DNA from: Cellulomonas sp. URHE0023 | Lineage (GTDB): Bacteria > Actinomycetota > Actinomycetes > Actinomycetales > Cellulomonadaceae | NCBI RefSeq assembly: GCF_000688475.1 | Contig: NZ_JIAN01000007.1 | Span: 372,001 to 436,000, forward strand | DNA length: 64,000 nt | Direction of reading: 5' to 3' | Part shown: positions 11,165 through 62,729 of the stretch, piece after piece | Layout of the letters: every line of letters starts with the position of its first letter | How positions within the stretch are numbered: position 1 is the stretch's first letter | Position numbers and translations under genes: made by a program | Notes under the pieces: generated by a model | Databases searched by the model: none | What the model saw: only the letters and a program-made list of their open reading frames with translations | Told to the model about the DNA's origin: nothing

Positions 11165-12502
11165 TCAGCCGAGCGGCAGCCGCAGATCCGCGCGCAGACC
11201 GCCGAGCGGCGAACGCGACAGCAGGATGTCACCGCCCAGCTCGCGGGCCACCTCCCGGGCGATCGCAAGCCCCAGGCCGCTGCCGCCCGCGTCGCGTTCG
11301 CGTGCCTCGTCGAGGCGCACGAACCGCTCGAACACGCGCTCGAAGTCGGCTTCGTCCAGCCCGGCACCGTCGTCGTCGACGCGCACGAGCCCGTCGGCGA
11401 CCGTGACGGTCACCTGCGCGGACGCATGCCGCACCGCGTTGTCGACCAGGTTGCGCACGACCCGGCCGGCGGACGCCTCCGCGGCGAACGCGCGTCCTGA
11501 GCCCTGCACGATCACGGTTGCCGTCGTCATGGGGAGAACGCCGCGCACGACGGCCGCAAGGTCCACGTCCGACCGCTCCGAGGACCCGGACCCCACGCGC
11601 GCCAGCACCAGCAGGTCGTCGACCAGTGCCTGCAGGCGCAGCACCTCGGCCTCGAGGTCGACGGCCAGCTCGGCGGTGTCGTAGGCCTCGGGGTGCAGAC
11701 GCGCGACCTCGATGCTGGCACGCAGCGTGGCGAGGGGTGAGCGCAGCTCATGAGCCGCGTCCGCGACGAAGGTCCGCTGTCGGGCGGCACCGGCCTCGAG
11801 CCGGTCGAGCATCGAGTTGAGGGTCCTGGCCAGGGCACCCAGCTCGTCGTCACGCCTCGGCACCGGAAGCGAGCCCGGCCCGCCGGTCGAGGCCACCAGC
11901 GCGGCGCCTCGGCGGAGCTCCTCGACGGGACGCAGCGCGCGCCCGAGGATCAACCAGACGACCAGCCCGAGCAGCAGCGTGAGCACCGGGACCACCATGA
12001 CCAGCGCGAGCCGCAGCGCGTCGAGCACGCTGCGCACCTCCGCGATGGGCACGGTCGCCACCACCGTCACCGGCTGGCCACCGTACGTGGCCGACCGGAC
12101 CGCGATCCGGGCCTCGTCGTCGTACGCGCTCGACGTGGTGCGGCCCACGGTCGTCCCCCGGCCGACGTGCAGCGTGCCGAGCGGCACGACCGGCAGCGTG
12201 CGGCTCGCGTTGGGCGACGTCGCCAGCACGCCGCCCCGGGCGTCGAGCAGCTGCACGATCTCCCCGGGCTCGGCCACCGGTAGCGCCTCGGGCAGGCGGT
12301 CGTCCTCGGTGAGAGCAGCGACCGTCGCGACGCGATCCGTGACGACCGTGTCCAGCGCGTCGATCCGGGTGCGGCTCAGCACGGTGGTCAGCGCGAACGC
12401 GCCCACCACGAGCGCGACGAAAAGCGCGCCCGACGCGATCAGCGTCAGGCGCATCCGCAACGACGGGCCGTGCCACGGGTGCTCGTGCCGGCGGCTACCC
12501 AT
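11165..12502 (-). CDS. sensor histidine kinase (EnvZ/OmpR class)
   Basis: A 445-residue kinase with TM1 near the N-terminus (LTLIASGALFVALVVGAFAL), an ~130-residue extracellular loop, TM2 (LALVMVVPVLTLLLGLVVWL), HAMP and HisKA. The phospho-His is in FVADAAHELRSPLATL. The ATPase domain has RNLVDNAVRHA, VDDDGAGLD and GGSGLGLAIAREVA. ATG at 12502 was preferred over an in-frame GTG at 12514; neither has a strong ribosome site. It is downstream of its response regulator and divergent from the exported-protein/ABC operon, which is a plausible target. Confidence 0.93.
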   Translation of the reverse strand: MGSRRHEHPWHGPSLRMRLTLIASGALFVALVVGAFALTTVLSRTRIDALDTVVTDRVATVAALTEDDRLPEALPVAEPGEIVQLLDARGGVLATSPNASRTLPVVPLGTLHVGRGTTVGRTTSSAYDDEARIAVRSATYGGQPVTVVATVPIAEVRSVLDALRLALVMVVPVLTLLLGLVVWLILGRALRPVEELRRGAALVASTGGPGSLPVPRRDDELGALARTLNSMLDRLEAGAARQRTFVADAAHELRSPLATLRASIEVARLHPEAYDTAELAVDLEAEVLRLQALVDDLLVLARVGSGSSERSDVDLAAVVRGVLPMTTATVIVQGSGRAFAAEASAGRVVRNLVDNAVRHASAQVTVTVADGLVRVDDDGAGLDEADFERVFERFVRLDEARERDAGGSGLGLAIAREVARELGGDILLSRSPLGGLRADLRLPLG

Positions 12503-47274: not shown

Positions 47275-48069
47275 ATGGACCTGACCTCACTCGACCACAT
47301 CCGCACCCCGCGCACCCGCTCCGACCTGGTGCTCGGACCTCGCAGCGCGCCCCTCGCCGGAGGCACGTGGCTGTTCTCGGAGGCGCAGCCCGACCTGACG
47401 GAGCTGGTCGACCTCACGGGTCTGGGCTGGGCGCCGTTCGAGGTGGGCGACGGGCTCACGATCGGCGCCACGTGCACGCTGCGCCAGCTGGCGGACCTCC
47501 CGACCGCGCCCGGGCGGCGCTCGCAGGACCTCGTCCTGCAGTGCCTGCGGTCGCTCGTGATGTCGGAGAAGATCTGGGACCTCGCGACCGTGGGCGGCAA
47601 CATCTGCCTCGCGCTCCCCGCGGGCGCGCTGATCACCCTGGCGGTCGCGCTCGATGCGACGGCCGTGGTCTGGACGCCGTCCGGCGGCTCCCGTGAGCTG
47701 CCCGTGCTCGACCTGGTGACCGGTGTCCGATCCACCGCGCTGGCGCCCGGGGAGGTCCTGCGCTCGATCGTCGTCGAGCCCGACGTGCTGGCCTCGCCGG
47801 CCGCGTTCGCACGCGTCGCCCTCACGCGGCACGGGCGGACCGGGGCGATCGTCGTCGGTCGTCGTGCAGGCGACGGGCTCGTCGCGACGGTCACCGGTGG
47901 CGTACCGCGGCCGCGCAGGTTCGCGTTCTCGTCGTACCCGTCGTCCGGTGCGCTGGCGGCGGCGATCGACACGGTCGACGACTGGTACGACGACCCGCAC
48001 GGCGCGCCCGACTGGCGTCGGGCCCAGACGTTGCGCCTGGCCGAGCAGGTCCGGGTGGAGCTCGCATGA
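47275..48069 (+). CDS. FAD-binding subunit of a molybdenum hydroxylase
   Basis: A 264-residue CoxM/XdhB-type subunit with a PCMH FAD-binding fold: [22 protein letters not shown] (FAD pyrophosphate loop), [16 protein letters not shown], and [18 protein letters not shown] (the second FAD motif). It passes electrons from the Fe-S centres to NAD or another acceptor. CGGGAG precedes the ATG. It overlaps the next gene by four bases; the pair encodes a complete xanthine-dehydrogenase-like enzyme. Confidence 0.92.
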
Positions 48070-50780
48070 AGATCGAGGTGAACGGCGAGACGCTGGACGT
48101 CGAACCTGCTCCGGGACAGGTGCTGCGGACGCTGCTGCGCGAGCACGGGCACACCGAGGTCAAGAAGGGCTGCGACGCCGGCGACTGCGGCGCGTGCACG
48201 GTGCTGCTCGACGGGCGGCCGACGCACTCGTGCCTGGTGCCTGCGGTCCGCGCCGAGGGCCGCTCGGTCACCACCGCGTCCGGGCTCGGAACGGTGGAGG
48301 AGCCGCACCCGGTCCAGCAGGCGTTCGTCGACGCGGCCGCCTTCCAGTGCGGGTTCTGCACCGCGGGGTACGTGACCACGGTCGCGGGTCTCGGGGTCTC
48401 GGGCGAGGTCACCGAGGAGACCGCCCGCGCGCTCAAGGGGAACCTGTGCCGGTGCACCGGGTACCGGTCCATCTGCGACGCGATCCGCGGTGTCAGCAAC
48501 ACGGTCGACCCCGTGGCCGGGCAGGACGCAGGGCGCTCGGTGCGGGCGCCCGCTGCGCGACGGGTCGTCACCGGCAACGAGCGGTTCACGCTCGACGAGC
48601 CGGCAGCAGACCTCGCGCACCTCGCGGTGCTCGGCAGCCCGCACCCGCACGCGCGGATCGTGTCCATCTCCACTGAGGCCGCCTCGCAGGCGCCTGGCGT
48701 GCTCGCCGTCCTGACGTACCTGGACTCCCCCGTCCACAGGTTCTCGACCGCCCGGCACGAGAGCCGGCTCGACGACCCCGACGACACCCTCGTCCTGGAC
48801 CGTGTGCTCCGTTTCCGCGGCCAGCGGGTGGCCGCCGTCGTCGCGTCGTCGCTGCGCGAGGCCGAGCGGGCTCTGGCGTTGATCCGGGTCGAGTACGAGG
48901 TGCTGCCCGCGGTCGTCGACCCTGAAGCGGCACGCCGACCCGGCGCTCCCCTGGTCCACGGCGACAAGGGCCCCGAGGCGCGCATCTCCGATCCGCTCCG
49001 CAACGTGGTCGCACAGCTGCACGACGAGATGGGATCCGTCTCCGCCGGCCTCGACGGTGCCGCGCACCGCGTGCACGGCACCTGGCGCACCAGCCGCGTC
49101 GCGCACGCCTCCCTGGAGACCCATGCCACGCGCGGCTGGCTGGATGAGGATGGCCGCCTGGTTCTGCGATCGAGCACCCAGGTGCCGTACCTGACCCGCA
49201 AGGAGATCGCGCACCTGTTCGACCTCGAGGAGTCCCGCGTCCGGGTGCTCACGGGGCGTGTGGGCGGCGGGTTCGGCGGCAAGCAGGAGCTGCTCACCGA
49301 GGACCTGGTCGCGCTCGCGGTGCTGCGGACCGGACGTCCCGTGCAGTACGAGATGACGCGGACCGACGAGTTCACGATCGTGCCCGGCCGGCACCCGTTC
49401 CGCGTGACGGTGGACCTGGGCGCGGACGAGGACGGCGTCCTCACCGCCCTGAAGATCGACGTCCTGGCGAACACCGGCGCGTACGGCAACCACGGGCCCG
49501 GCGTGATGTTCCACGGGGTGTCCGAGTCGGTCGCGGTGTACCGGTGCGCCAACAAGCGCGTCGACGCCGAGTCCGTCTACACGCACACCGTGCCGTCGGG
49601 GGCGTTCCGCGGGTACGGGCTGGGGCAGGTCCAGTTCGCGATCGAGTCCGCCATGGACGAGCTCGCGCGTCGCGTCGGGATCGACGCGTTCGAGCTGCGG
49701 CGGCGCAACGTCGTCGTGCCCGGGGACCACCTCCTGGTGACGGACCCCGACGAGGTCGGCGACCTCGACATGCACTCCTACGGGCTCGACCAGTGCCTCG
49801 ACCTCACGCAGTCCGCGCTGGCCGACCGGTCGCTCGACCTGCCGGCCCCGCCCGGCTCGGTCGTCGGCTCGGGGATGGCGATCGCGATGATCGCGACGAT
49901 CGCGCCGCGCGGACACTTCGCCGAGGCCTCGGTCCGGCTCCTCGAGGACGGCCGGTACGAGGCGCGGGTCGGCACCACCGAGTTCGGCAACGGCACGACG
50001 ACCGTGCACGGGCAGCTCGTCGCGCAGGCACTCGGCACGACGGTCGACCGGGTGGTCGTCCGGCAGTCCGACACCGACGTCACCGGCTACGACACCGGCG
50101 CGTTCGCCTCCGCCGGAACGGTCGTCGCGGGTCTCGCGCTGCACCGCGCCGCCCTCCAGCTGCGCGGCAAGATCCTGTCCGCGGCTGCGGCCCTGCGCGA
50201 CCACCCGTCCGACGAGCCGCGCACCTGGGACGGGTCGATGCTCGGCGTCGACTCCGCCGACGGCGTCCGCCTGGTCGACATCGCCGCCGCGGCACCCGGC
50301 CTCACCGGGCAAGGCACCCACGACGGCACGCCCAGGTCGGTCGCCTTCAACGTGCACGCGTTCCGGGTCGCGGTCTCACCGGACACGGGCGAGGTCACGA
50401 TCCTGCGCTCGATCCAGGCCGTCGACGCCGGCACGGTGCTGCACCCCGAGCAGCTGCGCGGGCAGGTCGAGGGTGGGGTGGGTCAGGCGATCGGCACGGC
50501 ACTGTTCGAGGAGGTCCGGCTCGACGACGAGGGCCGGGTCACCACAACCGCATTCCGGGCCTACCACGTGCCCCAGATGATCGACCTGCCGCGCACGGAG
50601 GTCCTGTTCGCGCAGACCACCGACGCGCTCGGTCCCCTGGGCGCCAAGTCCATGAGCGAGGCCCCGTACAACCCGGTGGCCCCCGCCCTGGCCAACGCGG
50701 TCCGCGACGCTCTCGACGTCCGTCCCTACGACCTGCCCATGAGCGCCGACCGCGTCTGGCGGCTCACCCAGGAGCGCTGA
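48066..50780 (+). CDS. fused 2Fe-2S / molybdopterin subunit of a xanthine dehydrogenase-family enzyme
   Basis: A 904-residue fusion. Residues ~1-150 are the iron-sulfur subunit: plant-type cluster [18 protein letters not shown] with Cys in HSCLVPA, and the second cluster CGFCTAGY with CRCTGYRSI. Residues ~165-900 are the Mo subunit: [31 protein letters not shown] and the catalytic Glu in [15 protein letters not shown]. Substrates are probably hypoxanthine/xanthine, given the uricase pathway nearby, but other heterocycles are possible. In most bacteria these two parts are separate proteins. Confidence 0.92.
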
Positions 50781-51823: not shown

Positions 51824-53092
51824 ATGCTGACACTGACGGGCGCCCGAGCGATCGTGATCGACGAACGGACCGAGACGTCGGGCGACCTCCAGGTCGTCGA
51901 CGGCGTGGTGAGCGAGGTGCCCGCACCGGGAGCCGAACGCCTCGACGTCGACGGCTGCGTCGTCACCCCCGGTCTGGTGAACGCGCACCACCACCTGCTG
52001 CAGACGGCGTTCCGCACTCTGCCAGGCACCCGCGCGGTCCCCATGGCGACCTGGCTGCCCACGATGGCCGCCGCCTATGCGCAGGCAGGTGTGGACGGTG
52101 AGCTCAGCAGCGTCGCCGCGGCCGCCGGTCTCGCCGAGGCCCTCCTGTGCGGGGTCACCACGGTGGCTGACCACCACCTGACGTGGCCCTCGGACGCCGA
52201 ACGGTCGCTCGACATCGCGCTCGGCACGGTGCGGGCCGCCGAGCTGCTGGGCGCGCGGCTCGTCTTCGTCCGGGGCAGCGCTCGCGACGACCCCCAGGTG
52301 GCGGCGACCTCCGCGGCCCTGCTCGCCGAGTCGATCGAGCAGAGCGCCATGCTCCAGCTCGCCGTCGGCCCAGCGGGGGTCCACAGCGACGGACCCGAGA
52401 CGTTCCGGCTGCTCGGCGAGGTCGCGCAGCGGTACGGCCTGCGGCGCCGCACGCAGGCGAACGAGCAGGTCGACGTGGCCATCGCGCAGGAGCGTTACGG
52501 CCGGCGTCCGCTCGACCTGCTCGACGACTGGGGCTGGCTCGCCCCGGACGTGACGCTCGCGCACCTGTGCGGGGTCACCGACGACGAGATCGCCCGCATC
52601 GCGGCGTCGGGCGCGAGCGCGACCCACGCGCCCGGCTGCGACCTGCCGATGGGCTGGGGCGTCGCACCGGTCGCCCGGCTGCTCGACAGCGGTGTGCGCG
52701 TCGGTCTGGGGACCAGCGGCGGTGGCAGCAACGACGCAGGGCACCTGCTCGCGGACGCTCGTCTCGCGCTGCAGGTCGCCCCGCTGGTCGGGCGGCCGGT
52801 GAGCGCACGGGAGGCGCTGGCCCTGGCGACGAGCGGGTCCGCAGCCGGGCTCGGCCGGCCCGAGCTCGGGCACCTGCGGCCCGGGGCGTCCGCCGACCTG
52901 TGCGTGTGGGACGTGTCGGGCGTCGCCGATGCGGGTGTCGCAGACCCCGTCGCCGGCCTGCTGTGGGCATCGCCGGGACGCCGGCCACGGCACGTCGTCG
53001 TGGCCGGTCGCGTGGTGGTCCGCGACTATGTGCTGCAGACGGCCGACGAGTCGGCGGTCGTGCAGGACCTGCGACGCCGCGTCGGGCGCTGA
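51824..53092 (+). CDS. amidohydrolase, 8-oxoguanine deaminase-like
   Basis: A 422-residue TRZ/ATZ-type amidohydrolase. Metal ligands are in VTPGLVNAHHHLLQT (HxH), with the catalytic His/Glu region in RRRTQANEQVDVA, His in LAHLCGVTDDE and Asp-equivalent residues in VGLGTSGGGSNDAGHLL. The ANEQ where HxxE is common and GGGSND where DGxxSND is common are atypical, so activity needs testing. Family and context (urate pathway, XDH) suggest 8-oxoguanine to urate; s-triazine-like substrates are alternatives. Confidence 0.75.
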   Translation: MLTLTGARAIVIDERTETSGDLQVVDGVVSEVPAPGAERLDVDGCVVTPGLVNAHHHLLQTAFRTLPGTRAVPMATWLPTMAAAYAQAGVDGELSSVAAAAGLAEALLCGVTTVADHHLTWPSDAERSLDIALGTVRAAELLGARLVFVRGSARDDPQVAATSAALLAESIEQSAMLQLAVGPAGVHSDGPETFRLLGEVAQRYGLRRRTQANEQVDVAIAQERYGRRPLDLLDDWGWLAPDVTLAHLCGVTDDEIARIAASGASATHAPGCDLPMGWGVAPVARLLDSGVRVGLGTSGGGSNDAGHLLADARLALQVAPLVGRPVSAREALALATSGSAAGLGRPELGHLRPGASADLCVWDVSGVADAGVADPVAGLLWASPGRRPRHVVVAGRVVVRDYVLQTADESAVVQDLRRRVGR

Positions 53093-53100
53093 GCCCGCTC

Positions 53101-54048
53101 TCACAGCTCGAGCACCAGGCCCGGTCCGGCGGCCCGGGAGACGCAGATCATCATGGTCTGGCTCGCGCCGCCCGGGCCGATGACCGAGTCCCGGTGCTCG
53201 ACGGACCCCTGCAGCACGGGCGTCTCGCAGCTCCCGCACGTGCCCACCCGGCACGACGACACCACGACCGCCCCGCTCGCCTCCACCACGTCGAGGATGC
53301 TCTGGCCGGGGTCCACGGTCAGGGTCGTCCCGCTGAGCGCGAGCTCCACCTCGAACGGGTCAGGCCACACGGGCGGCCCGAACTCGCGCGCCTCGAACCG
53401 CTCGGTGTGCACGGACCACCCGTCGGTCCCGGCCTCCTCGACCGCGTCGAGCAGCCGGCGCGGCCCGCAGCAGAACACCCGCCCCGCCGGGCCGTCGGTG
53501 AGCGCGGAGACCGCGAGCCTCTCGCCTTCGTCCGCCGCGTACACGCGCACGCGCGACGGGTGGTCGGCGACGAGCTCCTCGACGAAGGCCATGGTCGCCC
53601 GCGAGCGCCCGGCGTAGTGCAGCGACCAGTCCGTCCCGGCGGCGTCTGCGGCGGCGATCATCGACAGCATCGGGGTGATCCCGATGCCACCGGCGACGAA
53701 CACCGTGGACCGGTCCGCCGCCGGGGTGAACGCGAAGTGGTTGCGCGGCCCACGCAGGCGGAGCGTGTCGCCCACCGCGAGCGTGTCGTGCACGACCGCA
53801 GATCCCCCTGCGCCGTCCTGCGACAGGAGCACCGCCACGCGGTAGGTCATCCGGTCGGCGGGGTCACCGCACAGCGAGTACTGCCGCTCCCACCCGCCCG
53901 GCAACAGCAGGTCGACGTGTGATCCCGGCGTCCAGGCAGGCAGGGGACGGCCGTTGGTCGGGGCCAGGTCGAGGGCCAGGACACCGTCGGCGACGACCGT
54001 CCGGGCCTGCACCACGACCGGTCGCTGCATGTCGCTGAAGACGCTCAC
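53101..54048 (-). CDS. phthalate-dioxygenase-reductase-type flavoprotein with C-terminal 2Fe-2S
   Basis: A ~315-residue electron-transfer protein. Flavin domain: WERQYSLCGDP. NAD domain: VFVAGGIGITPMLSMI and RVFCCGPRRLL. The C-terminal plant-type ferredoxin has SSCRVGTCGSCETPVLQG and MMICVS for its four Cys. Such reductases serve Rieske oxygenases, but none is in the window. GGGAGG precedes GTG at 54048; ATG at 54030 would be shorter. It is divergent from the catabolic operon at 54257 and may supply electrons to it or to an oxygenase elsewhere. Confidence 0.9.
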   Translation of the reverse strand: MSVFSDMQRPVVVQARTVVADGVLALDLAPTNGRPLPAWTPGSHVDLLLPGGWERQYSLCGDPADRMTYRVAVLLSQDGAGGSAVVHDTLAVGDTLRLRGPRNHFAFTPAADRSTVFVAGGIGITPMLSMIAAADAAGTDWSLHYAGRSRATMAFVEELVADHPSRVRVYAADEGERLAVSALTDGPAGRVFCCGPRRLLDAVEEAGTDGWSVHTERFEAREFGPPVWPDPFEVELALSGTTLTVDPGQSILDVVEASGAVVVSSCRVGTCGSCETPVLQGSVEHRDSVIGPGGASQTMMICVSRAAGPGLVLEL

Positions 54049-54190
54049 AAGACCTCCCGGGCCGACGACCAGAACTCGTTGCCGACACCGTACGAGGCTC
54101 GTGTTAACAGCAGCGCAAACACCGTGACGTGGAAGGACCACGCTCGTTACACACGGGAAACGGCGGCTGCCTAGCGTGCTTACCCAGCAG

Positions 54191-54200
54191 TAGATATAGA
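54191..54200 (+). promoter_or_regulatory. possible promoter of the 54.3-60.6 kb catabolic operon
   Basis: TAGATATAGA is the only A/T-rich patch in the 208-bp divergent region and offers a -10 (TAGATA or TATAGA). CTGCCT at 54167-54172, 18 bp upstream of TAGATA, is a weak -35. It lies 57-66 bp before the presumed start of the deaminase gene. Confidence 0.3.
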
Positions 54201-54256
54201 CCCCGCGACGGCGCACCCGCCCGGGTGAGCCATGCGCTCCCCGGAGGAGGTCCACG

Positions 54257-55504
54257 ATCGCCGCCCTGCCCCGCCCCATCGAGCGTCTGCTGCACGCGCG
54301 GCTCGCCGACGGCCACGTGGTCGACGTCCGGCTCGACAAGGGCAGGGTCGCCGAGGTGGTCCCGGGAGGAACCCTCGGCCTGGGTGACCCGGACACGACC
54401 CTCGAGCTCGACGACTTCCTGCTGCTGACCGCGCCCGCCGACCCGCACGCGCACCTGGACAAGGCGCTCTCCTGGGACGCGATCCGGCCTCCCATGGGCG
54501 ACCTGCGGCTCGCGATCGAGTCGTGGCACGCCTACTCGGACCAGATGACCGTCGACGAGATCGCGGACCGCGCCCGGACCCAGGCCCTGACGATGCTCGC
54601 CCACGGCACCACCGCGATCCGCAGCCACGTCGACCTGCTTCCCGGCCCCGACCCGCTGCGCGGTGTGCACGCCCTCATCCGGGTCAGGCAGGAGCTGCGT
54701 GGCCTGCTCGACCTCCAGCTCGTGACTCTCGGCGGCTACCTGACCCCGACCGAGGACCACGAAGCGGCCCTGGCAGCAGGCGTCGACCTGGTCGGCGGCG
54801 CACCTCACCTTGCGCCCGACGCCCTCATCGAGCTCGCGCGGCTGCTCGAGACCGCTCGGACGCACGGCGTCGGTGTCGACGTCCACACCGACGAGAGCCT
54901 CGACTGCGAGGTGACGCTCGACGTGCTCGCCCGAGCGGTCGTCGGCTGGACCGCACCGGTCAGCGCCGGGCACTGCGTCCGGCTCGGGACCCTCGACGGA
55001 CCGCGTCGAGACGAGGTCATCGCCGACGTGCTGGCGGCGGACCTCGGGGTCATCGCGAACCCGATCACCAACCTCTACCTGCAGGGCTGGGAGTCGGACG
55101 TGGCGACGCCCCGCGGCCTGACGGCGGTCCGCGCGCTCGTCGACGCCGGAGTCCGGTTCGCCGCGGGCGCCGACAACGTCCGCGACCCGTTCAACCCGCT
55201 GGGCCGCAGCGACGCGCTGGAGACCGCGATGCTCCTGGTCGTCGCCGGGCACCTCTCGGTCGACGAGGCCTACGCCGCGGTCAGCACCGGTGCACGTGAC
55301 GTCATGGGCCTTGCACCGGCGGGCGTCGTGCCGGGAGCCCGTGCAGAGCTGCTGGCGGTGCGCGGCACCGACCTCGTCGGCGTCGTGGCCACCTCCTCGC
55401 TGGACCGCTACGTGATCCACGCAGGACGGCTCGTCGCGTTCAGCGAGACGCACACCCAGGTCGCCTCCCCGGTGCTCCTGCCCACCTACCCCGAAGCCAG
55501 GTGA
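54257..55504 (+). CDS. CodA-like amidohydrolase (cytosine/isoguanine deaminase family), possible ATC start
   Basis: About 415 residues. Metal and catalytic motifs of cytosine deaminases are complete: DPHAHLDKALSWD, VDVHTDESLDCE, SAGHCVRLG and FAAGADNVRDPFNPLG. CodA relatives deaminate cytosine, isoguanine or creatinine. GGAGGAGG at 54243-54250 is followed at 6 bases by an in-frame ATC (54257). The first in-frame GTG (54317) would lose the strand ERLLHARLADGH, so ATC initiation, CTG at 54266, or a base error should be considered. First gene of the ABC transporter operon. Confidence 0.82.
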   Translation: MAALPRPIERLLHARLADGHVVDVRLDKGRVAEVVPGGTLGLGDPDTTLELDDFLLLTAPADPHAHLDKALSWDAIRPPMGDLRLAIESWHAYSDQMTVDEIADRARTQALTMLAHGTTAIRSHVDLLPGPDPLRGVHALIRVRQELRGLLDLQLVTLGGYLTPTEDHEAALAAGVDLVGGAPHLAPDALIELARLLETARTHGVGVDVHTDESLDCEVTLDVLARAVVGWTAPVSAGHCVRLGTLDGPRRDEVIADVLAADLGVIANPITNLYLQGWESDVATPRGLTAVRALVDAGVRFAAGADNVRDPFNPLGRSDALETAMLLVVAGHLSVDEAYAAVSTGARDVMGLAPAGVVPGARAELLAVRGTDLVGVVATSSLDRYVIHAGRLVAFSETHTQVASPVLLPTYPEAR

Positions 55505-56289
55505 CCGTGTCCACGACGACCCCCACCCCCACCGTCGGCAGGCCGCACACCGAGGCCCTCCCCCTGCTCGGGTTCGAGGACGTCGCGATGACATTCCCCG
55601 GCGGCACGGTCGCCCTGTCCGGCGTGGACCTGACCGTCGGACGCGGCGAGTTCGTCTCGGTCGTCGGCCCGTCAGGCTGCGGCAAGTCCACGCTGCTGCG
55701 CATCGCCTCCGGTCTCGAGACGGCCTCCACGGGCACCGTCACGCTCGCGACCGACCACATCGCCTACGTGTTCCAGGACGCGACGCTCCTGCCGTGGCGC
55801 AACGTGCTCGGCAACGTCGAGCTGCTTGCGGAGCTCAAGGGCCGTGGACCCAAGATCCGCCGGGAGAAGGCACGCGAGGCGATCCGGCTCGTCGGTCTGG
55901 AGGGCTTCGAGAAGCACCTGCCCAAGCAGCTGTCCGGTGGCATGAAGATGCGCGCCTCGCTCGCGCGCTCGTTCACGCTCGACCCCGAGCTGTTCCTGTT
56001 CGACGAGCCCTTCGGCGCGCTCGACGAGATCACGCGCGGCCGCCTGCAGGACGAGCTGCTCAAGCTCTTCAGCGAGCAGCACTTCGCCGGTCTGTTCATC
56101 ACGCACTCGGTGGCCGAGGCCGTGTACCTGTCCACCAAGGTCGTCGTCATGTCGGGCCGTCCCGGTCGGCTGGTCGAGTCCTTCGACATCCCGTTCCCGA
56201 TGCCCCGAGACCCCGACATCCGGTACTCCCCCGAGTTCACCGAGGTCGTCGGCCAGGTCTCCCACGCCCTGAAGGAGGCGCACAGCTGA
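55501..56289 (+). CDS. NitT/TauT-type ABC transporter ATP-binding protein
   Basis: A 262-residue importer ATPase. Walker A is VVGPSGCGKSTLLRIASG, Q-loop YVFQDATLLPWRNV, signature QLSGGMKMRASLARSF and Walker B LFLFDEPFGALDE, with H-loop FITHSVAEAVYLS. This subgroup imports sulfonates, nitrate, thiamine pyrimidine or riboflavin. GTG at 55501 overlaps the deaminase stop, and its own stop overlaps the permease ATG. The deaminase and importer are therefore coupled, suggesting an imported heterocycle is deaminated. Confidence 0.94.
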   Translation: MTVSTTTPTPTVGRPHTEALPLLGFEDVAMTFPGGTVALSGVDLTVGRGEFVSVVGPSGCGKSTLLRIASGLETASTGTVTLATDHIAYVFQDATLLPWRNVLGNVELLAELKGRGPKIRREKAREAIRLVGLEGFEKHLPKQLSGGMKMRASLARSFTLDPELFLFDEPFGALDEITRGRLQDELLKLFSEQHFAGLFITHSVAEAVYLSTKVVVMSGRPGRLVESFDIPFPMPRDPDIRYSPEFTEVVGQVSHALKEAHS

Positions 56290-57134
56290 TGGCTGCCACC
56301 ACGATCGAGGGCGTCACGGCCGAGGCGCGCGCCGTCACGCCGGTCGCACCGCGCCGCCGCAAGCGCTCGACCATCTCCTGGCTGGGGCCGGTGGTCGTCT
56401 TCTTCCTGATGGTCGGCCTCTGGTACGCCCTCGCGTACTACTACGCGCAGCGCGGGCTGCCCTACTTCGTGCCGTACCCGCACCAGGTCGTCGAGGCCAT
56501 GTTCTCCGAGGGCGAGTTCCAGGTCCTCATGACGGCGTTGCTGCACAGCACCGAGGTGGCGATGACCGGTCTGGCGATCGCGATCGTCATCGGGGTGACG
56601 TGGGCGGTCCTCATGGCGCAGGCGACCTGGATCGAGCGCTCGCTGTTCCCGTACGCGGTGGTCCTGCAGTGCATCCCGATCCTCGCGCTCGTGCCCCTGA
56701 TCGGGATCCTGTTCGGCTACAACTTCCAGGCCCGCGTGATCGTGACGGTGCTCATCGCGCTCTTCCCCCTGGTCGCCATGACGTTGTTCGGCCTCCAGTC
56801 GGTGGCCAAGCAGCAGCGTGAGCTCTTCCAGCTCCAGGGCGTGTCCCGCGCGACGATGCTCGTCAAGCTCCAGTTCCCCGCCGCGCTGCCCTCGATCTTC
56901 GTCGGCCTGCGGACCTCGGCCGGGCTGGCCGTGGTCGGTGCCGTGGTCGGCGACCAGTTCTTCCAGCGCGGCAACCCGGGCCTCGGTGTCCTGATCCAGC
57001 TGTACGCCAACCGGCTGCAGGGGCCCGACCTCTACGCCGCGATCATCGTCGCGTCGCTGCTCGGCGTGACCGTGTTCGTGGTCTTCGGCCAGCTCGGCAA
57101 GCTCGCCGTGGGCCGTTGGTACGACTTCTCCTGA
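56289..57134 (+). CDS. ABC transporter permease (BPD type)
   Basis: A 281-residue inner-membrane permease with six helices (VVVFFLMVGLWYALAYYY, AMTGLAIAIVIGVTWAVL, AVVLQCIPILALVPLIGILF, AIIVASLLGVTVFVVFG). The cytoplasmic EAA-like loop reads FQLQGVSRATMLVKLQFPAA and ALPSIFVGLRTSAGLAVVG. It pairs with the ATPase upstream (TGATG overlap) and the lipoprotein binding protein downstream. Confidence 0.93.
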   Translation: MAATTIEGVTAEARAVTPVAPRRRKRSTISWLGPVVVFFLMVGLWYALAYYYAQRGLPYFVPYPHQVVEAMFSEGEFQVLMTALLHSTEVAMTGLAIAIVIGVTWAVLMAQATWIERSLFPYAVVLQCIPILALVPLIGILFGYNFQARVIVTVLIALFPLVAMTLFGLQSVAKQQRELFQLQGVSRATMLVKLQFPAALPSIFVGLRTSAGLAVVGAVVGDQFFQRGNPGLGVLIQLYANRLQGPDLYAAIIVASLLGVTVFVVFGQLGKLAVGRWYDFS

Positions 57135-57204
57135 CGCACCTGTCCACAAGGCTCACGGCCACCCCCGCGGCCGTCGGGATGACCCACCAACGAAAGAGAG
57201 CACC

Positions 57205-58386
57205 ATGCGCACACGCAACCGCACCGTCGTCGCCGCAGCCGCTGGGATCGTCCTGACCGCCTTCGGGCTGTCGGCCTGCGCCGACGGTTCCGGCGACAGC
57301 GACGCCACCACCGCCGCCACCGCGGCTGCCGGCGGCGTCGACCTGTCCGACGTCTGTCCGGCCACGGTCGTGGTGCAGACCGACTGGAACCCCGAGGCGG
57401 ACCACGGTCACCTGTACGAGCTGGTCGGGCCCGGCTACACGGTCGACGCGAACCAGAAGACGGTGACCGGGGACCTCGTGGCGGGCGGCAAGCCGACGGG
57501 CGTCAAGATCGAGGTCCGCGCGGGCGGCCCCGCGATCGGCTTCACGCAGGCCTCCGCCCAGCTCTACACGGACAAGGACATCACCCTCGGCTACGTGTCC
57601 ACCGACGAGGCCGTCCAGCTCTCCGACAAGTTCCCGACGACGGCCGTGTTCGCGGAGAACGACAAGTCCCCGATGATGGTCATGTGGGACCCGGCCACGT
57701 ACCCGGACGTGACCGACATCAAGAGCCTCGGCGCGGCGCTCAAGGACTCGGGCGGCGTCATCCGGTACTTCAACGGTGCCGCCTACATGAGCTACCTCAT
57801 CGGGTCCGGCATCCTCGACGAGTCCGTCACGGACGGCAGCTACGACGGCACCCCGGCCAACTTCGTCGCCGCGGGGGGCAAGGACGCGCAGCAGGGCTTC
57901 GCGACCGCCGAGCCGTTCATCTACGAGAACGAGGTCCCGGCCTGGGGCAAGCCGGTCGAGCTCGAGACCATCCACGACACGGGGTTCCCGCTCTACCCCG
58001 AGGCCATGTCGGTGCGTTCGGGTGACCTGGAGACGCTGACGCCCTGCCTCAAGAAGCTCGTGCCCGTCATGCAGCAGGCGGACGTCGACTACATCACCGA
58101 CCCGTCCACCACGAACGCCCTGATCCTCGACCTGGTCGACAAGTACAACAACGGCTGGGTCTACTCGCAGGGCGTCGCGGACTTCGCGGTCACGCAGATG
58201 AAGGATCTGGAGATCGCGTCCAACGGTGACAACGCCTACGTCGGCGACATGGACGAGGCTCGCATCCAGACGATCATCGACACGATGACGCCGATCTACA
58301 CGGAGGCCGGCGCGCCCCCGAAGTCGGGCCTCGTCGCCACGGACCTGTTCACGAACGAGTTCCTGGACCAGTCGATCGGCTTCTGA
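57205..58386 (+). CDS. ABC transporter substrate-binding lipoprotein (NMT1/SsuA-like)
   Basis: A 393-residue lipoprotein. The signal peptide ends in the lipobox LSAC (Cys21). The mature part starts CPATVVVQTDWNPEADHGHL, a type-2 periplasmic-binding fold seen in pyrimidine and riboflavin-type importers (TQASAQLYTDKDITLGYVST, MVMWDPATYPDVTDIKSLG, ATAEPFIYENE, GFPLYPEAMSVR). Tyr, Trp and Asp near the pocket suggest an aromatic or heterocyclic ligand, but this is inference. AAAGAGAGC precedes the ATG. A very strong hairpin follows the stop. Confidence 0.9.
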   Translation: MRTRNRTVVAAAAGIVLTAFGLSACADGSGDSDATTAATAAAGGVDLSDVCPATVVVQTDWNPEADHGHLYELVGPGYTVDANQKTVTGDLVAGGKPTGVKIEVRAGGPAIGFTQASAQLYTDKDITLGYVSTDEAVQLSDKFPTTAVFAENDKSPMMVMWDPATYPDVTDIKSLGAALKDSGGVIRYFNGAAYMSYLIGSGILDESVTDGSYDGTPANFVAAGGKDAQQGFATAEPFIYENEVPAWGKPVELETIHDTGFPLYPEAMSVRSGDLETLTPCLKKLVPVMQQADVDYITDPSTTNALILDLVDKYNNGWVYSQGVADFAVTQMKDLEIASNGDNAYVGDMDEARIQTIIDTMTPIYTEAGAPPKSGLVATDLFTNEFLDQSIGF

Positions 58387-58391
58387 CCCCT

Positions 58392-58431
58392 CGGCCGCGG
58401 CACGCCGGCCTTGACCGGCGTGCCGCGGCCG
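58392..58431 (+). terminator. 17-bp perfect hairpin between the binding-protein and FAD-oxidase genes
   Basis: CGGCCGCGGCACGCCGG (58392-58408), loop CCTTGA, CCGGCGTGCCGCGGCCG (58415-58431). It begins six bases after the stop. Because the operon seems to continue, it may be a partial terminator or an mRNA-stabilising end that raises binding-protein output over downstream genes. Confidence 0.6.
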
Positions 58432-58461
58432 CACATCGTCCCGCTGACTCGGAGGCACCCC

Positions 58462-59787
58462 ATGCAGACCACGACCGCCCTGGACGCGCTGCTCGCCGAC
58501 CTGCGGAGCATCCTGGGCGACGACGGGGTGAGCACCGACCTCCGCGTCCGGGAACGCGCGAGCGTCGACGGCGCCAAGATGTCTCCCGTCATCCTCGAGC
58601 TGCTCCCGCTGGGCCTCGCGGACGTCGTGGCCTTCCCGACGAACGCCGCACAGATCGCCGAGTGCGTCGCTGCCGCGGTGGCGCGCGGCGTGCCGGTCAC
58701 CCCCCGCGGCAAGGGCACCGGCAACTACGGCCAGGCGATCCCGATGCCGGGCGGCCTGGTGCTGGACCTGACGCGCGCCCGCGCGGTCGTCGAGATCGGT
58801 GACGGATGGGTCACCGCCGAGGCCGGCGCCACGATGGTCGCCATCGAGGCCGCGGCCCGGGAGACCGGGCAAGAGCTGTGGATGTACCCCTCGACCGCGC
58901 AGTCGACGATCGGCGGCTTCCTGTCAGGCGGTTCCGGTGGGACCGGGACGATCGTCCACGGTGCCAACCACCAGGGGTTCGTCGTGGCACTGGACGTGGT
59001 GCACGCGCAGCCTGATGCGGCCGTGGTCCATGTCGAGGGCGAGGAGGCGCAGGCCTACGTCCACAACTACGGGACCGCCGGGATCCTCGCGCGCGCCACC
59101 GTGCGCCTCGAGCCGCTGCAGGACTGGCACGGGCTCTATGCGTCCTTCGCCGACCAGCACACGGCGTTCCGCGTGCTGCGCGAGATCGGCCGGCTCTCGC
59201 CCGCCCCGCGCCTCGTCTCCGCGGACCCCGCGTCGATCGCTGAGGCGTTGCCACCGGACGACGCCCTCCCGCCGGGCCGCGCGAGCCTGCGAGCGATCCT
59301 GGACCCCGCCGCGGTGCCGGCCGCTACCGCGCTGGTCGTCGGTGCCGGGGGCACCGTCGAGGACCTTCGCGACGGACCCCAGGCGTCGCTCAAGCTGTCC
59401 GTGCTCTCCTACAACCACCCCATCGAGTGGCTGCAGAAGTCCGACCCGGGGACGTACGTGCATCTCGAGGTGGGCGGAGACGCGCTCGTCGACCGGCTCG
59501 AGGAGGTCCAGGCCACGATCCCCGGAGGTCTGCTGCACCTCGAGGCAGGGCACACCGTTCCGATCGGAATGCTCGCGGGCGTCTACGAGGGACCCGAACG
59601 GCTGGCGGACGTGATCTCCGCTCTTGCGGACCTCGGCGTGGGCGTCCACAACCCGCACCAGTGGAACGTCGACTTCGAGGTCGAGCGCACGATCGCCCTC
59701 GCCGCGGTCACGGACCCGTCGGGGCTCCTCAACCCCGGGAAGCTGAACCCGGACTACGCCGGCCCGCGCAAGGGCGCGATCCGATGA
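58462..59787 (+). CDS. FAD-linked oxidase (PCMH/GlcD type)
   Basis: A 441-residue flavoenzyme. The FAD-binding domain has VTPRGKGTGNYGQAIPMPGGL, VTAEAGATMVAIEAAARE, STIGGFLSGGSGGTGTIVHG and NYGTAGILARATVRLEP. The C-terminal cap ends LLNPGKLNPDY, typical of GlcD-like oxidases of 2-hydroxyacids and related compounds. The substrate is unknown and is presumably a product of the imported compound. GGAGG precedes the ATG at 58462. It overlaps the creatininase-family gene by four bases. Confidence 0.9.
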   Translation: MQTTTALDALLADLRSILGDDGVSTDLRVRERASVDGAKMSPVILELLPLGLADVVAFPTNAAQIAECVAAAVARGVPVTPRGKGTGNYGQAIPMPGGLVLDLTRARAVVEIGDGWVTAEAGATMVAIEAAARETGQELWMYPSTAQSTIGGFLSGGSGGTGTIVHGANHQGFVVALDVVHAQPDAAVVHVEGEEAQAYVHNYGTAGILARATVRLEPLQDWHGLYASFADQHTAFRVLREIGRLSPAPRLVSADPASIAEALPPDDALPPGRASLRAILDPAAVPAATALVVGAGGTVEDLRDGPQASLKLSVLSYNHPIEWLQKSDPGTYVHLEVGGDALVDRLEEVQATIPGGLLHLEAGHTVPIGMLAGVYEGPERLADVISALADLGVGVHNPHQWNVDFEVERTIALAAVTDPSGLLNPGKLNPDYAGPRKGAIR

Positions 59788-60566
59788 GCCGCCTGCTCGC
59801 CGAGCTGTCCGGCCCTGCGACCGCCCGAGCCCTGGGCCCGGACTCCGTGCTGGTGGTCCCGACCGGTGCCATGGAGCACCACGGGCCACACCTTCCCCTG
59901 GTCACCGACTCCCTGATCGCGGAGAGCGTCGCAACCGCAGCCATCGAGCGGGCCGCGGCAGCAGGCCTCGACGTCTGGCAGCTCCCCACGCTCACCTACA
60001 CCAAGTCCGACGAGCACTCGTGGGCGTCCGGGACCATGTGGGTCAGCGCGAGCACCCTCCTGGCCACGCTCGTGGACCTCGGCCGGTCCGTGGCCACGAC
60101 CCCCGCCCGACGGCTCGTGTTCCTCAACGGGCACGGCGGCAACACCGCGCTCCTCGGGGTCGCGCTGCGCGAGATCCGTCGGCTCCACGGCCTCATGACC
60201 TTCTCGATGCCGGCCGGGGTGCAGATCGCCGGTGCGGGGCACGAGGACGAGCCCGACGAGCACGGTCTGGGCATTCACGCCGGGTACGGCGAGACCTCGC
60301 TCGTGATGCACCTGCGCCCGGACCTCGTCGACATGACCCGGGCCCGCCGGACCGTCCCCGAGCACATCGCAGCCATGACCCACCTCGGCTTCAACGGCAC
60401 GACCGCCCAGTTCGGCTGGTTGAGCAACGACTTCGGCCCCGACGGCGTCATCGGCGACCCGACCGGAGCCACGGCCGCCGCCGGGGCGGTCCTCTTCGAC
60501 GCCTCGGTCCGCCGGGCGGTCGACGTCCTCACCGAGATCGCCTCCTTCACCCACAGGACACCGTGA
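59784..60566 (+). CDS. creatininase-family amidohydrolase
   Basis: A 260-residue metal hydrolase. Motifs are PTGAMEHHGPHLPLVTDSLIAE (Glu, His and Asp ligands), TYTKSDEHSWASGT, RLVFLNGHGGNTALLGV, DEHGLGIHAGYGETSLVMHL (Glu/His ligands) and VIGDPTGATAAAG. The family includes creatininase, MftE and ArfB-type formamide hydrolases, so a cyclic amide or formamide bond is the likely target. It is coupled to the FAD oxidase upstream. The exact substrate is unknown. Confidence 0.9.
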   Translation: MSRLLAELSGPATARALGPDSVLVVPTGAMEHHGPHLPLVTDSLIAESVATAAIERAAAAGLDVWQLPTLTYTKSDEHSWASGTMWVSASTLLATLVDLGRSVATTPARRLVFLNGHGGNTALLGVALREIRRLHGLMTFSMPAGVQIAGAGHEDEPDEHGLGIHAGYGETSLVMHLRPDLVDMTRARRTVPEHIAAMTHLGFNGTTAQFGWLSNDFGPDGVIGDPTGATAAAGAVLFDASVRRAVDVLTEIASFTHRTP

Positions 60567-60631
60567 CGGCCGCTCCCTGCGCACTCCTCGAGGTGCGCGC
60601 GCTCCCTCTCCCGAGCAAGGTGGCCGAGTGA
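60563..60631 (+). other. 22-codon micro-ORF overlapping both flanking genes
   Basis: GTG at 60563 overlaps the creatininase-family stop (GTGA), and the micro-ORF stop TGA at 60629-60631 overlaps the next gene's GTG at 60628. It would encode VTAAPCALLEVRALPLPSKV plus two residues. It may serve only to carry ribosomes across the gap. Chance is possible in GC-rich DNA. Confidence 0.3.
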
Positions 60632-61203
60632 CGCAGCAGGTGCCCGACGAGGCGTGGCAGCTCCTCGAGGAGTGGTTGCCCGACAACGACGACCCCGACC
60701 GCCCCGTCATGACGCTCGCGACCGTCGACGAGGCCGGCCTCCCTGACGCCCGCTCCGTGCTGCTCAGCGAGTACGACCGCGACGGCTTCTCCCTCCACAC
60801 CGACGCGACCTCCCGCAAGGTCGGCCAGCTCGACGCGCGTCCGGGCGCCGCACTCGTCCTGCGCTGGCCCGACGCGTTGCGCCAGCTCGTCGTGCGCGGG
60901 ACCGCCGAGCGCGCCCACCGTGCGGAGACGGACCGCGCGTACGCGCTGAGGTCCCCGTACCTGCAACGCCTCGCCTGGGTGAACACCCCTGCCGTCGCGC
61001 AGTTGCCACCGCAGGAGCGGCGAGCGAAGTGGGCCGACTTCGCGGCCATCCACCCCGTGCCCGACCCTCCCGCGAGCTGGGTCGGCTTCCTGGTCCGTCC
61101 CACCAGCCTCACCTTCTGGACGGGTGAGCCGGACTCGGTGAGCCATCGTCGCGAGTACCGGCTCGGGGCGTCCGGGTGGCTGCGGACGGAGCTTCCCGGG
61201 TGA
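60628..61203 (+). CDS. pyridoxamine 5'-phosphate oxidase-like protein
   Basis: A 191-residue FMN-binding split-barrel protein. The PdxH-like segments are VMTLATVDEAGLPDARSVLL, FSLHTDATSRKVGQLDARPG and LRQLVVRGTAERA, with a C-terminal RREYRLGASGWLRTELP like the PdxH end. It probably oxidises pyridoxamine or pyridoxine phosphate, or another FMN-dependent substrate. The context in a catabolic operon is unusual for a vitamin B6 gene. GTG at 60628 abuts the micro-ORF. Confidence 0.8.
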   Translation: MTQQVPDEAWQLLEEWLPDNDDPDRPVMTLATVDEAGLPDARSVLLSEYDRDGFSLHTDATSRKVGQLDARPGAALVLRWPDALRQLVVRGTAERAHRAETDRAYALRSPYLQRLAWVNTPAVAQLPPQERRAKWADFAAIHPVPDPPASWVGFLVRPTSLTFWTGEPDSVSHRREYRLGASGWLRTELPG

Positions 61204-61264: not shown

Positions 61265-62158
61265 ATGACGGCCCGACTGCAGTCCCACCAGTACGGCAAG
61301 GCCGAGACGCGCGTCGTCCGGATCGTTCGTGACACGGCTCGGCACGAGATCCGTGACCTCAACGTCACCTCGGCTCTGCGCGGCACCTTCGAGGACGCCT
61401 ACCTGACCGGCGACCAGTCTGCGGTCCTTCCGACGGACACCCAGAAGAACATGGTCTTCGCGTATGCCAAGCAGCACGGGGTCGAGTCGCCCGAGCGGTT
61501 CGGCATCCTGCTCGCGGAGCACTTCGTGGACGACATCGCGCCCGTCACGGGCGCACGCGTCGACGTCCAGGAGTACACGTGGGTGCGCGCTGTCGTCGAC
61601 GGCGCCGAGCACGACCACACCTGGCTCCGCAGCGGCCAAGAGGTCCGGACCGCTTCGGTCACGGTCGACCAGGGCACGACGACCGTCATCGCCGGTCTCA
61701 AGGACCTGACCGTCCTGAAGTCGACCGGATCGGAGTTCACGGGCTTCCTCAAGGACGAGTACACGACCCTGCAGGAGACCGACGACCGAGTCCTCGCGAC
61801 GTCGCTGATCGCCCAGTGGCGCTACGCCGGGACCGACGTCGACTTCGACGCCACGTACGCCACGGTCCGCGAGACCCTCATCTCCACGTTCGCGACGCTG
61901 CACTCCCTCGCCCTGCAGCAGACCCTCTGGCACATGGGCGCGCAGGTCATCGAGCGGGTCCCCGAGGTGGTCGAGATCAGGTTCGCCGCACCCAACAAGC
62001 ACCACTTCCTCTCGGACCTCAGCCCGTTCGGCCTCGAGAACCCCGGCGAGGTGTTCTGGGCTGCCGACCGGCCCTACGGCCTCATCGAGGCGGTGATCGT
62101 CCGCGAGGGCGCTGCCCCGGTGGACGCCGCCTGGACTCGATCGGTCGGTGCGCCATGA
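61265..62158 (+). CDS. factor-independent urate oxidase
   Basis: A 297-residue T-fold enzyme that oxidises urate with O2 to 5-hydroxyisourate and H2O2. The catalytic Lys12 is in QYGKAETRV, Thr57 in AVLPTDTQKNMVFA and His in APNKHHFLSDLSPFG. The Phe/Arg substrate pocket (SEFTGFLKDEYTTL) is present. Upstream genes make urate and downstream genes process its products. The next gene (guanine deaminase) follows after 70 bp on the same strand. Confidence 0.96.
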   Translation: MTARLQSHQYGKAETRVVRIVRDTARHEIRDLNVTSALRGTFEDAYLTGDQSAVLPTDTQKNMVFAYAKQHGVESPERFGILLAEHFVDDIAPVTGARVDVQEYTWVRAVVDGAEHDHTWLRSGQEVRTASVTVDQGTTTVIAGLKDLTVLKSTGSEFTGFLKDEYTTLQETDDRVLATSLIAQWRYAGTDVDFDATYATVRETLISTFATLHSLALQQTLWHMGAQVIERVPEVVEIRFAAPNKHHFLSDLSPFGLENPGEVFWAADRPYGLIEAVIVREGAAPVDAAWTRSVGAP

Positions 62159-62228
62159 GCCCCGTCCCGACGCCGCCACGACCCGACCGGGTGGCTCACC
62201 CACCCGCCACGTCCATCAGGGAGCCTCG

Positions 62229-62729
62229 ATGACCCGGTCCGACGGCGCGCACCGGCTCGACGACGACGACGAGCGCTGGCTCACCGAGGCGGTCGCCCTT
62301 GCCACGTCCAACGTCGCCGAAGGCGGTGGGCCGTTCGGGGCCGTCGTCGTCCTCGACGGCGTCGTCATCGGCACCGGCCAGAACCGCGTCACGCGTGACA
62401 ACGACCCCACAGCCCACGCCGAGGTGCAGGCGATCCGCGCCGCGTGCCGGGCGATCGGCGGCTTCTCGCTCGACCGCGCCACCCTGTACACGTCCTGCGA
62501 GCCGTGCCCGCTGTGCCTCGCCGCGTGCCTGTGGTCCCGGGCGCGCCGGGTCGTCTACGCCGCCAACCGCGACGATGCTGCCCGTGCAGGCTTCGACGAC
62601 TCGCTCTTCTACGACCTGTTCGCGGCCGACCGAGGCACGTGGCCGATGCCTGTCGTCGGGCACCGCGTCCCCGCCACCTCCGAACCGATGGACGCCTGGC
62701 TGGCCCGCCCGACCAAGGTCGAGTACTGA
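62229..62729 (+). CDS. guaD: guanine deaminase (CMP/dCMP-deaminase fold)
   Basis: A 166-residue zinc enzyme converting guanine to xanthine. HAEVQAIRAACRA provides the Zn His and catalytic Glu, and TSCEPCPLCLAACLWSRA provides two Cys ligands. NRDDAARAGFDDSLFYDLF matches the C-terminal signature of Bacillus GuaD. AGGGAG precedes ATG at 62229; an upstream open extension has no conservation. Its product, xanthine, is the substrate for the dehydrogenase encoded at 47-51 kb. Confidence 0.92.
   Translation: MTRSDGAHRLDDDDERWLTEAVALATSNVAEGGGPFGAVVVLDGVVIGTGQNRVTRDNDPTAHAEVQAIRAACRAIGGFSLDRATLYTSCEPCPLCLAACLWSRARRVVYAANRDDAARAGFDDSLFYDLFAADRGTWPMPVVGHRVPATSEPMDAWLARPTKVEY

Follow-up and report, generated by a model that had tools for sequence, protein, structure and literature searches.

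The Rut pathway of pyrimidine degradation combines flavin oxygenation, a flavin reductase and amide hydrolysis. The genes under xanthine (NMT1) riboswitches, as named in the extract of PMC7373994 on which we draw, include those for NitT/tauA-type binding proteins, PDR reductases and 8-hydroxyguanine/guanine-deaminase-like proteins, and the extract of PMC9513972 used here names carboxypeptidase G and a pterin deaminase in the degradation of folate in Variovorax. In addition, the title of the PDB entry 6V42 describes a flavin oxygenase 'involved in folate catabolism'. When examining a stretch of 64,000 nucleotides (hereafter, the window; contig NZ_JIAN01000007.1, positions 372,001 to 436,000) of the 4.2 Mb genome of Cellulomonas sp. 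URHE0023, in which an earlier note had recognized an operon encoding a deaminase, an importer, a flavin adenine dinucleotide (FAD) enzyme, a creatininase-family hydrolase and a PdxH-like protein, we found that this operon is real, conserved and only partly known. Every gene named in the note is present as an intact reading frame, and the conserved core comprises nine genes (51824-61203; Table 1) that we infer to constitute one catabolic module for a small nitrogen heterocycle.

The extent of the unit differs from that originally described. The start at 54257 leaves out an 8-oxoguanine-deaminase-like gene and an opposite-strand gene for a VanB-type reductase, with which the conserved unit begins, and the end at 60631 cuts the PdxH-like gene off after its first 4 bases. 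The genes had also been thought to be joined mostly by overlaps of 1-4 bases; three junctions do overlap (deaminase/ATPase, 4 bases; ATPase/permease, 1; FAD enzyme/creatininase-family hydrolase, 4), but three others are spaced, by 70 bases between permease and binding protein, 75 between binding protein and FAD enzyme, and 61 between the hydrolase and the PdxH-like protein. When the genome collection was searched for the FAD enzyme, 149 relatives were obtained; the best 80 loci, all actinobacterial by title, were analysed together with one more (L007), 81 in all, and the counts given below leave out the 19 loci shorter than 21 kb and refer to the remaining 62. Presence was scored by tblastn with the window proteins, with identity cut-offs that we set for each gene. 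All nine core genes were detected in 48 of the 62 loci, and the order 8-oxoguanine-deaminase-like protein (+), VanB-type reductase (-), CodA-like deaminase (+), ATPase (+), permease (+), binding protein (+), FAD enzyme (+), creatininase-family hydrolase (+), PdxH-like protein (+) is kept in 43, so the association of these genes exceeds chance; the linkage across actinobacterial genomes, which the earlier note had proposed to check, is thus borne out. Taken singly, the genes accompany that of the FAD enzyme in 62 (VanB-type reductase), 61 (deaminase), 60 (ATPase, permease and binding protein, each), 59 (PdxH-like), 56 (creatininase-family) and 51 (8-oxoguanine-deaminase-like) loci, some of the absences of the last gene being locus-end effects (L034 starts inside it). 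The closest named matches of the FAD enzyme, among the matches listed, come from two Cellulomonas strains (90% identity in L008 and 79% in L009). Of 58 relatives of the window genome, the same 3 have the FAD enzyme together with the creatininase-family and 8-oxoguanine-deaminase-like proteins, and the binding protein is found in these 3 and, as one diverged copy, in a fourth.

Outside the operon, the window encodes a molybdenum hydroxylase of the xanthine dehydrogenase (XDH) family. Its fused subunit contains XDH-family domains, and XdhA is its best model, at 499.5 bits, below the curated cut-off of 780 bits for xanthine dehydrogenase. With match cut-offs of 1e-60 in the module genomes and the 58 relatives and 1e-120 in Microbacterium, an XDH-family protein was detected in all 48 module genomes (drawn from 50 loci), with at least 57% identity in 39; among the 58 relatives, of which only 3 carry the module, an XDH-family protein is present in 21 and uricase in 20. 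Uricase is present in 39 of the 48 module genomes, and the nine without it are all Microbacterium by record title. Across 119 genomes of that genus (the genus of G077, M. flavum, L034), compared with kinship ignored and with a match threshold of 1e-30 for uricase, the FAD enzyme is present in 29, the XDH-family protein in 51 and uricase in 34. All 29 genomes with the FAD enzyme have the XDH-family protein, compared to 22 of the 90 others (Fisher p 3.7e-14), and uricase is found in 2 of the 29 compared to 32 of the 90 (p 0.002). When the 51 XDH-positive genomes are partitioned, 27 have the FAD enzyme only, 16 uricase only, 2 both and 6 neither (Fisher p 1.1e-6). The module does not depend on uricase, given that 27 of the 29 Microbacterium genomes with the FAD enzyme have no match to the uricase of the window. 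The two genes that go together are also often close, the XDH-family gene lying within 40 kb of the FAD enzyme gene in 11 of the 16 Microbacterium genomes that have both on one contig. In the six of these 11 pairs that we opened (L108-L119), the PdxH-like gene stands beside the XDH-family genes in all six, with an MTHFR-like (methylenetetrahydrofolate reductase) gene next to it in five, and an allantoinase match is present in four; uricase, as well as HIU hydrolase and OHCU decarboxylase, which were sought in these regions only, gave no tblastn match in any of them. One of the regions, L110 from the uricase-negative genome G160, encodes near the module an allantoinase (510 bits, cut-off 357.85) and an allantoate amidohydrolase (496 bits, cut-off 479), with AtzH-like/amidase and aminotransferase genes between them.

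The nearest structure of the FAD enzyme is 6V42, with 28% identity in a full-length match that is clearly above those of other VAO-fold enzymes, and 66%-identical relatives of 6V42 belong to the same gene set in two Rhizobium loci (L100 and L101), where creatininase-family, NitT importer and CodA-like genes lie beside them. The earlier note had stated that no pathway with this set was described, which has to be qualified since 6V42 was deposited as an enzyme of folate catabolism and its close relatives reside in the same set; likewise, the substrate for which the note had looked to database matches is named, as folate, in the PDB title, but we found no paper that establishes it. Proteobacterial relatives were sought on plasmids by tblastn with the FAD enzyme, the binding protein and 6V42, and 17 loci (L088-L104) were chosen by hand from the matches; 14 of them show the FAD enzyme (L088 and L092-L104), L089 and L090, which are binding-protein matches, do not, and L091 is unannotated. 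In the 14 loci, CodA-like, permease and binding-protein genes are present throughout, ATPase and creatininase-family genes in 13 each and RidA-type genes in 12, the gene tables being incomplete (L104 lists no creatininase-family gene, and L094 no ATPase). The encoded proteins are 28-33% (FAD enzyme), 27-33% (deaminase), 31-39% (creatininase-family) and 21-32% (binding protein) identical to those of the window, and the ATPase of the window is 65% identical to its Nitratireductor homolog in L088. At 1e-60, no plasmid match to the 8-oxoguanine-deaminase-like protein was obtained.

In 13 of the 14 loci, the set includes an electron-transfer gene or has one nearby, which fits an enzyme that needs reduced flavin, and the kind of gene varies: an NAD(P)H-dependent oxidoreductase in seven, a 2Fe-2S protein in six (both in two loci), a PDR/VanB protein in two, namely, the Pantoea and Klebsiella clusters L102 and L103, where it is 37-38% identical to the VanB-type reductase of the window, and none listed in L099. 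No match to the NAD(P)H-dependent oxidoreductase (one query) was found in the 81 actinobacterial loci, and none to RidA (three queries) in these loci or in the window. The likely electron donor of the FAD enzyme is what changes from clade to clade. Taking together the gene complement, this varying donor and the resemblance to 6V42, titled a flavin oxygenase, the FAD enzyme is likelier an oxygenase than the FAD-linked oxidase that it had been called. In two of the proteobacterial clusters, molybdenum-enzyme genes are close by, PaoABC and XdhC genes adjoining the Rhizobium cluster L100 and PaoABC genes lying near the Agrobacterium cluster L097. Two diverged copies of the cluster (L088 and L096) are found on a single Nitratireductor plasmid, and near one of them lie genes for a Rieske oxygenase, a ferredoxin and a reductase.

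Comparison of the remaining proteins with curated models does not support the names CodA, creatininase and PdxH, as originally given, in the strict sense, the respective cut-offs not being reached. The CodA-like deaminase stays below the scores set for cytosine deaminase (176.9 against 438 and 176.5 against 403 bits), and its PDB matches are cytosine deaminase (7e-29) and N-isopropylammelide hydrolase (4e-21). In CodA, residues of the HxH, H, E, H, D pattern bind the metal and serve in catalysis, and Gln156 of the FPQEG loop binds the pyrimidine. The HxHLDK, HxDE, H and DN motifs are nearly invariant among 69 actinobacterial and 14 proteobacterial members of the deaminase family; the FPQEG loop aligns to LGGYLT plus a gap in the window protein, in a region that varies across the family, and the pyrimidine-binding Gln is not kept. 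The 8-oxoguanine-deaminase-like protein likewise falls short of the curated score (Table 1), and its best PDB chains are one labelled triazine hydrolase, followed by 7ww2 and 3hpa. The creatininase-family hydrolase belongs to the superfamily by domain score and by conserved acidic and His motifs, E31, H33, D42, H117 and E170 being invariant in 54 actinobacterial and 13 proteobacterial members, and it stays below the cut-off for creatininase sensu stricto (TIGR04448, 77.7 bits against 235), as does the PdxH-like protein below that for pyridoxamine 5'-phosphate oxidase (Table 1). The substrate-binding protein has no Pfam match, and a profile search of PDB gave none at E up to 1; its best folds are those of ThiY, a binder of aminopyrimidine, and of thiamin-binding proteins, at 16% and 14% identity. 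A 54% identical paralog of the binding protein is encoded elsewhere in the genome near a DUF1989 (urea-amidolyase-associated-like) gene (L105:9057-10220, 10884-11969), a neighbor that hints at a guanidine- or urea-like ligand.

The function that we favor for the module, with a probability of about 0.45, is the uptake of a pterin-like compound and the opening of its ring by oxygenolysis. Folate breakdown would most likely be the source of the compound that the ABC (ATP-binding cassette) importer would bring into the cell, and the XDH-family molybdenum hydroxylase encoded nearby would hydroxylate the ring, for example, converting pterin to isoxanthopterin; the presence of this hydroxylase in 29 of the 29 Microbacterium genomes with the module suggests that hydroxylation of the ring precedes the route or forms part of it. 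One or both amidohydrolases may then remove the exocyclic amine, and the FAD enzyme, reduced via the VanB-type reductase and/or the PdxH-like flavoprotein, would oxygenate and open the ring. The resulting lactam or amide would be cleaved by the creatininase-family metallohydrolase, and the ureide-type products could enter an allantoin-type pathway. The deaminases and the lactam-type hydrolase fit a compound with a 2-amino-4-oxo-pyrimidine edge, such as pterin, guanine or 8-oxoguanine, and pterin is preferred because of the title of 6V42 and the folate-type one-carbon genes in part of the loci (MTHFR-like in 29 of 62, cyclohydrolase-like in 6 of 62). The ThiY-like fold of the binding protein and the PaoABC genes near the Rhizobium and Agrobacterium clusters also speak for this reading. 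McNutt reportedly described bacterial breakdown of isoxanthopterin by way of xanthine derivatives. The order of these steps is what we infer from the enzyme kinds, and pterin as the substrate is the least certain element. The earlier proposal that the operon imports a heterocycle and breaks it down by deamination, amide cleavage and oxidation accords with this scheme, and so does its preference for a purine-like compound over creatinine. More tentatively, the module might be a second, uricase-free route for the bicyclic rings that XDH-family enzymes produce, in which an O2-using VAO-fold flavin oxygenase and a creatininase-family hydrolase open a hydroxylated pterin or purine and pass ureides to the allantoin pathway, standing in for uricase in Microbacterium and forming an added route in other Actinobacteria and Proteobacteria.

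Several observations weigh against a pterin substrate or against the proposed route as a whole. The identity to 6V42 is 28%, and folate is named by the PDB title alone. The window gave no tblastn match to the MTHFR-like and cyclohydrolase-like genes, and no folate-specific gene was recognized beside the module, although none was searched for. At the Rfam gathering score, xanthine riboswitches were the only RNA family found in the searches of the window and 13 cluster loci, with neither a tetrahydrofolate (THF) nor a thiamin pyrophosphate (TPP) family among the matches. Nine of the 48 module genomes (Modestobacter, Blastococcus, Klenkia and Trujillonella) have an XDH-family match of no more than 30-36% identity, which may be another hydroxylase, and six loci of the same four genera have no creatininase-family gene within the stretch. 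The near-exclusion of the module and uricase fits a purine route equally well, and in Pantoea (L089), a relative of the NitT binding protein and an amidohydrolase are encoded behind a xanthine riboswitch, adjoining a convergent 8-oxoguanine deaminase gene, which points to a purine.

A uricase-independent purine route, in which the XDH-family enzyme would make or supply an oxidized purine (xanthine, urate or 8-oxoguanine) and the FAD enzyme would replace uricase, is a possibility to be considered, if a doubtful one. The near-exclusive distributions among the 51 XDH-positive Microbacterium genomes, the allantoinase and allantoate amidohydrolase genes near the module in uricase-negative G160, together with the allantoinase matches in four of the six regions, and the xanthine riboswitches and purine genes near relatives of the module all speak for it. 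The riboswitches are the only matches, three in number and all RF03054, in 12 proteobacterial loci at the gathering score: one in L102 (1333-1386, minus strand), upstream of genes for a NitT binding protein and an amidohydrolase, and two in L089 (11444-11499, minus strand, and 11763-11819, plus strand), one upstream of the binding protein and amidohydrolase genes and the other upstream of an iron/2-oxoglutarate oxygenase gene; the window, L027, L007, L044 and L105-L107 gave no Rfam match at this score. However, uricase coexists with the module in the window and in 39 of the 48 module genomes, urate would not call for a CodA-like deaminase, and the title of 6V42 names folate. The location within a purine island, which had been taken as a guide, is a weak one, uricase being near the module in only 23 of the 62 loci.

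A route that passes a one-carbon unit to tetrahydrofolate from another cyclic guanidine or purine-like compound, for example, a 7-deazapurine or a methylated guanine, appears unlikely: the MTHFR-like and cyclohydrolase-like genes that some loci contain, the Rieske oxygenase gene near the Nitratireductor cluster L088 and the DUF1989 neighbor of the binding-protein paralog would suit it, and VanB-type reductases usually serve Rieske oxygenases, but no Rieske oxygenase or demethylase was recognized in the actinobacterial neighborhoods, where no model search was made for them, and the MTHFR-like gene is absent from 33 of the 62 loci. The fold of the binding protein brings to mind an aminopyrimidine, for example, the thiamin pyrimidine HMP, with ThiY-like import, 4-deamination, oxidation of the hydroxymethyl group and ring opening. 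This route is improbable, given that it leaves the 29 of 29 co-occurrence with the XDH-family protein and the frequent purine neighbors unexpected, that no TPP riboswitch reached the gathering score in the window and cluster loci searched, and that, in the extract of Yu and Breaker (PMC7373994) used here, NMT1/THI5-like annotation is misleading for genes under xanthine riboswitches. Degradation of creatinine or N-methylhydantoin, a candidate of the earlier note, would account for creatininase-family and CodA-like genes sharing one operon; with the creatininase cut-off missed, NGHGGN in place of the NGHYEN of solved creatininases and the link to the XDH family left unexplained, it is very improbable.

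The surroundings of the core are variable: an XRE-cupin regulator, of which L068 has the representative, occurs in 43 of the 62 loci, an MTHFR-like gene in 29, allantoinase in 27, uricase in 23, an SDR gene in 17 and a methenyl-THF-cyclohydrolase-like gene in 6; no match to the XRE-cupin regulator was found near the operon of the window. MTHFR-like proteins with a MetV-type motif are encoded at L057:11943-13061 (PF12225) and, in tandem, at L030:6795-9193, and an FTCD_C/methenyl-THF-cyclohydrolase-like gene lies at L042:6285-6896. In L013 (Modestobacter), six of the nine genes are missing within the stretch, and the trio that is left, the VanB-type, FAD and PdxH-like genes, is perhaps the minimal redox unit. 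In the window, a nucleoside/guanine-deaminase-like gene (62148-62729, as called) overlaps the end of the uricase gene by 11 bases and accompanies the module in only 10 of the 62 loci, and an amidohydrolase gene just past the right end of the window (L120:2331-3686) encodes a protein 49% identical to one encoded near the module in 13 of the 62. The start codon of the CodA-like deaminase is ATC, at 54257, behind the strong Shine-Dalgarno motif GGAGGAGG; this codon is ATC in L008 too, where the motif also precedes it, and ATG in L009, so ATC is probably a natural start codon common to two strains.

Table 1. Genes of the conserved module, its partner and a neighbor in the window
Feature	Position	Strand	Remarks
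XDH-family molybdenum hydroxylase, FAD subunit (partner, outside operon)	47275-48069	+	PF00941
XDH-family molybdenum hydroxylase, fused 2Fe-2S and Mo subunits (partner, outside operon)	48066-50780	+	PF02738, PF20256, PF01315, PF01799
8-oxoguanine-deaminase-like amidohydrolase (core)	51824..53092	+	NF006055 best NCBIfam model, 268.4 bits, below cut-off 532
VanB/PDR-type reductase with 2Fe-2S domain (core)	53101..54048	-	PF00111; GTG start behind GGGAGG
Shine-Dalgarno GGAGGAGG and probable ATC start codon of CodA/AtzC-like deaminase	54243..54259	+	
CodA/AtzC-like metal-dependent deaminase (core)	54257..55504	+	NF005748 176.9 bits, cut-off 438
ABC ATPase, NitT/TauT type (core)	55501..56289	+	PF00005
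ABC permease (core)	56289..57134	+	PF00528
Substrate-binding protein (core)	57205..58386	+	
VAO-fold FAD enzyme, relative of flavin oxygenase 6V42 (core)	58462..59787	+	PF01565
Creatininase-family amidohydrolase (core)	59784..60566	+	PF02633 213.8 bits, cut-off 31.3
PdxH-like split-barrel flavoprotein (core)	60628..61203	+	PF01243; pdxH 101.2 bits, cut-off 180
Uricase (neighbor, not core)	61265..62158	+	TIGR03383 355.9 bits, cut-off 168.4

If the proposed function is correct, a widespread bacterial pathway of pterin or purine mineralization gains a testable gene definition, functions become available for nine conserved genes that are now named cytosine deaminase, creatininase, VanB and PdxH by similarity alone, and the retention of the XDH-family enzyme in uricase-negative Microbacterium genomes is explained. 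A search of the open-access literature, which covered titles and the starts of abstracts and left most subscription journals outside, yielded, among the matches listed, no paper on the gene set, the 6V42 enzyme or its substrate, so that the PDB title is the sole naming of a substrate that we found. Within that literature, the actinobacterial version of the module with its VanB-type, 8-oxoguanine-deaminase-like and PdxH-like genes, and its tie to the XDH family and not to uricase, are apparently undescribed.

Among the known systems, the Rut pathway is alike in outline, with RidA in 12 of the 14 proteobacterial loci that show the FAD enzyme and, in the one cluster tested, that of Alloyangia, a RutR-like regulator (PF08362; 146 bits against a cut-off of 368). 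The oxygenase of the module, however, is a VAO-fold FAD_binding_4 protein, no RutA model being listed for any of the nine core proteins, and the module further differs by the creatininase-family hydrolase, the added ABC importer and the deaminases. The closest solved chains of both amidohydrolases include triazine hydrolase, hydroxydechloroatrazine ethylaminohydrolase and N-isopropylammelide hydrolase, which we take to be TrzN, AtzB and AtzC, respectively; these matches to enzymes of atrazine degradation are distant, and both proteins match guanine- and cytosine-type deaminases too. The likeness of the binding protein to ThiY is one of fold, the sequence identity being low and the window protein having no Pfam match. 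The gene groups under xanthine riboswitches resemble the module in the kinds of genes mentioned at the outset, and such riboswitches were seen in L089 and L102; by contrast, no creatininase or FAD_binding_4 gene is named in the extract of PMC7373994 used here, and no such RNA reached the gathering score in the window, L027, L007 or L044. A further counterpart is the set that surrounds the relatives of 6V42 in Rhizobium: the two loci L100 and L101 have RidA and an NAD(P)H-dependent oxidoreductase, to which the actinobacterial loci give no match, whereas the actinobacterial version has the VanB-type, 8-oxoguanine-deaminase-like and PdxH-like genes.

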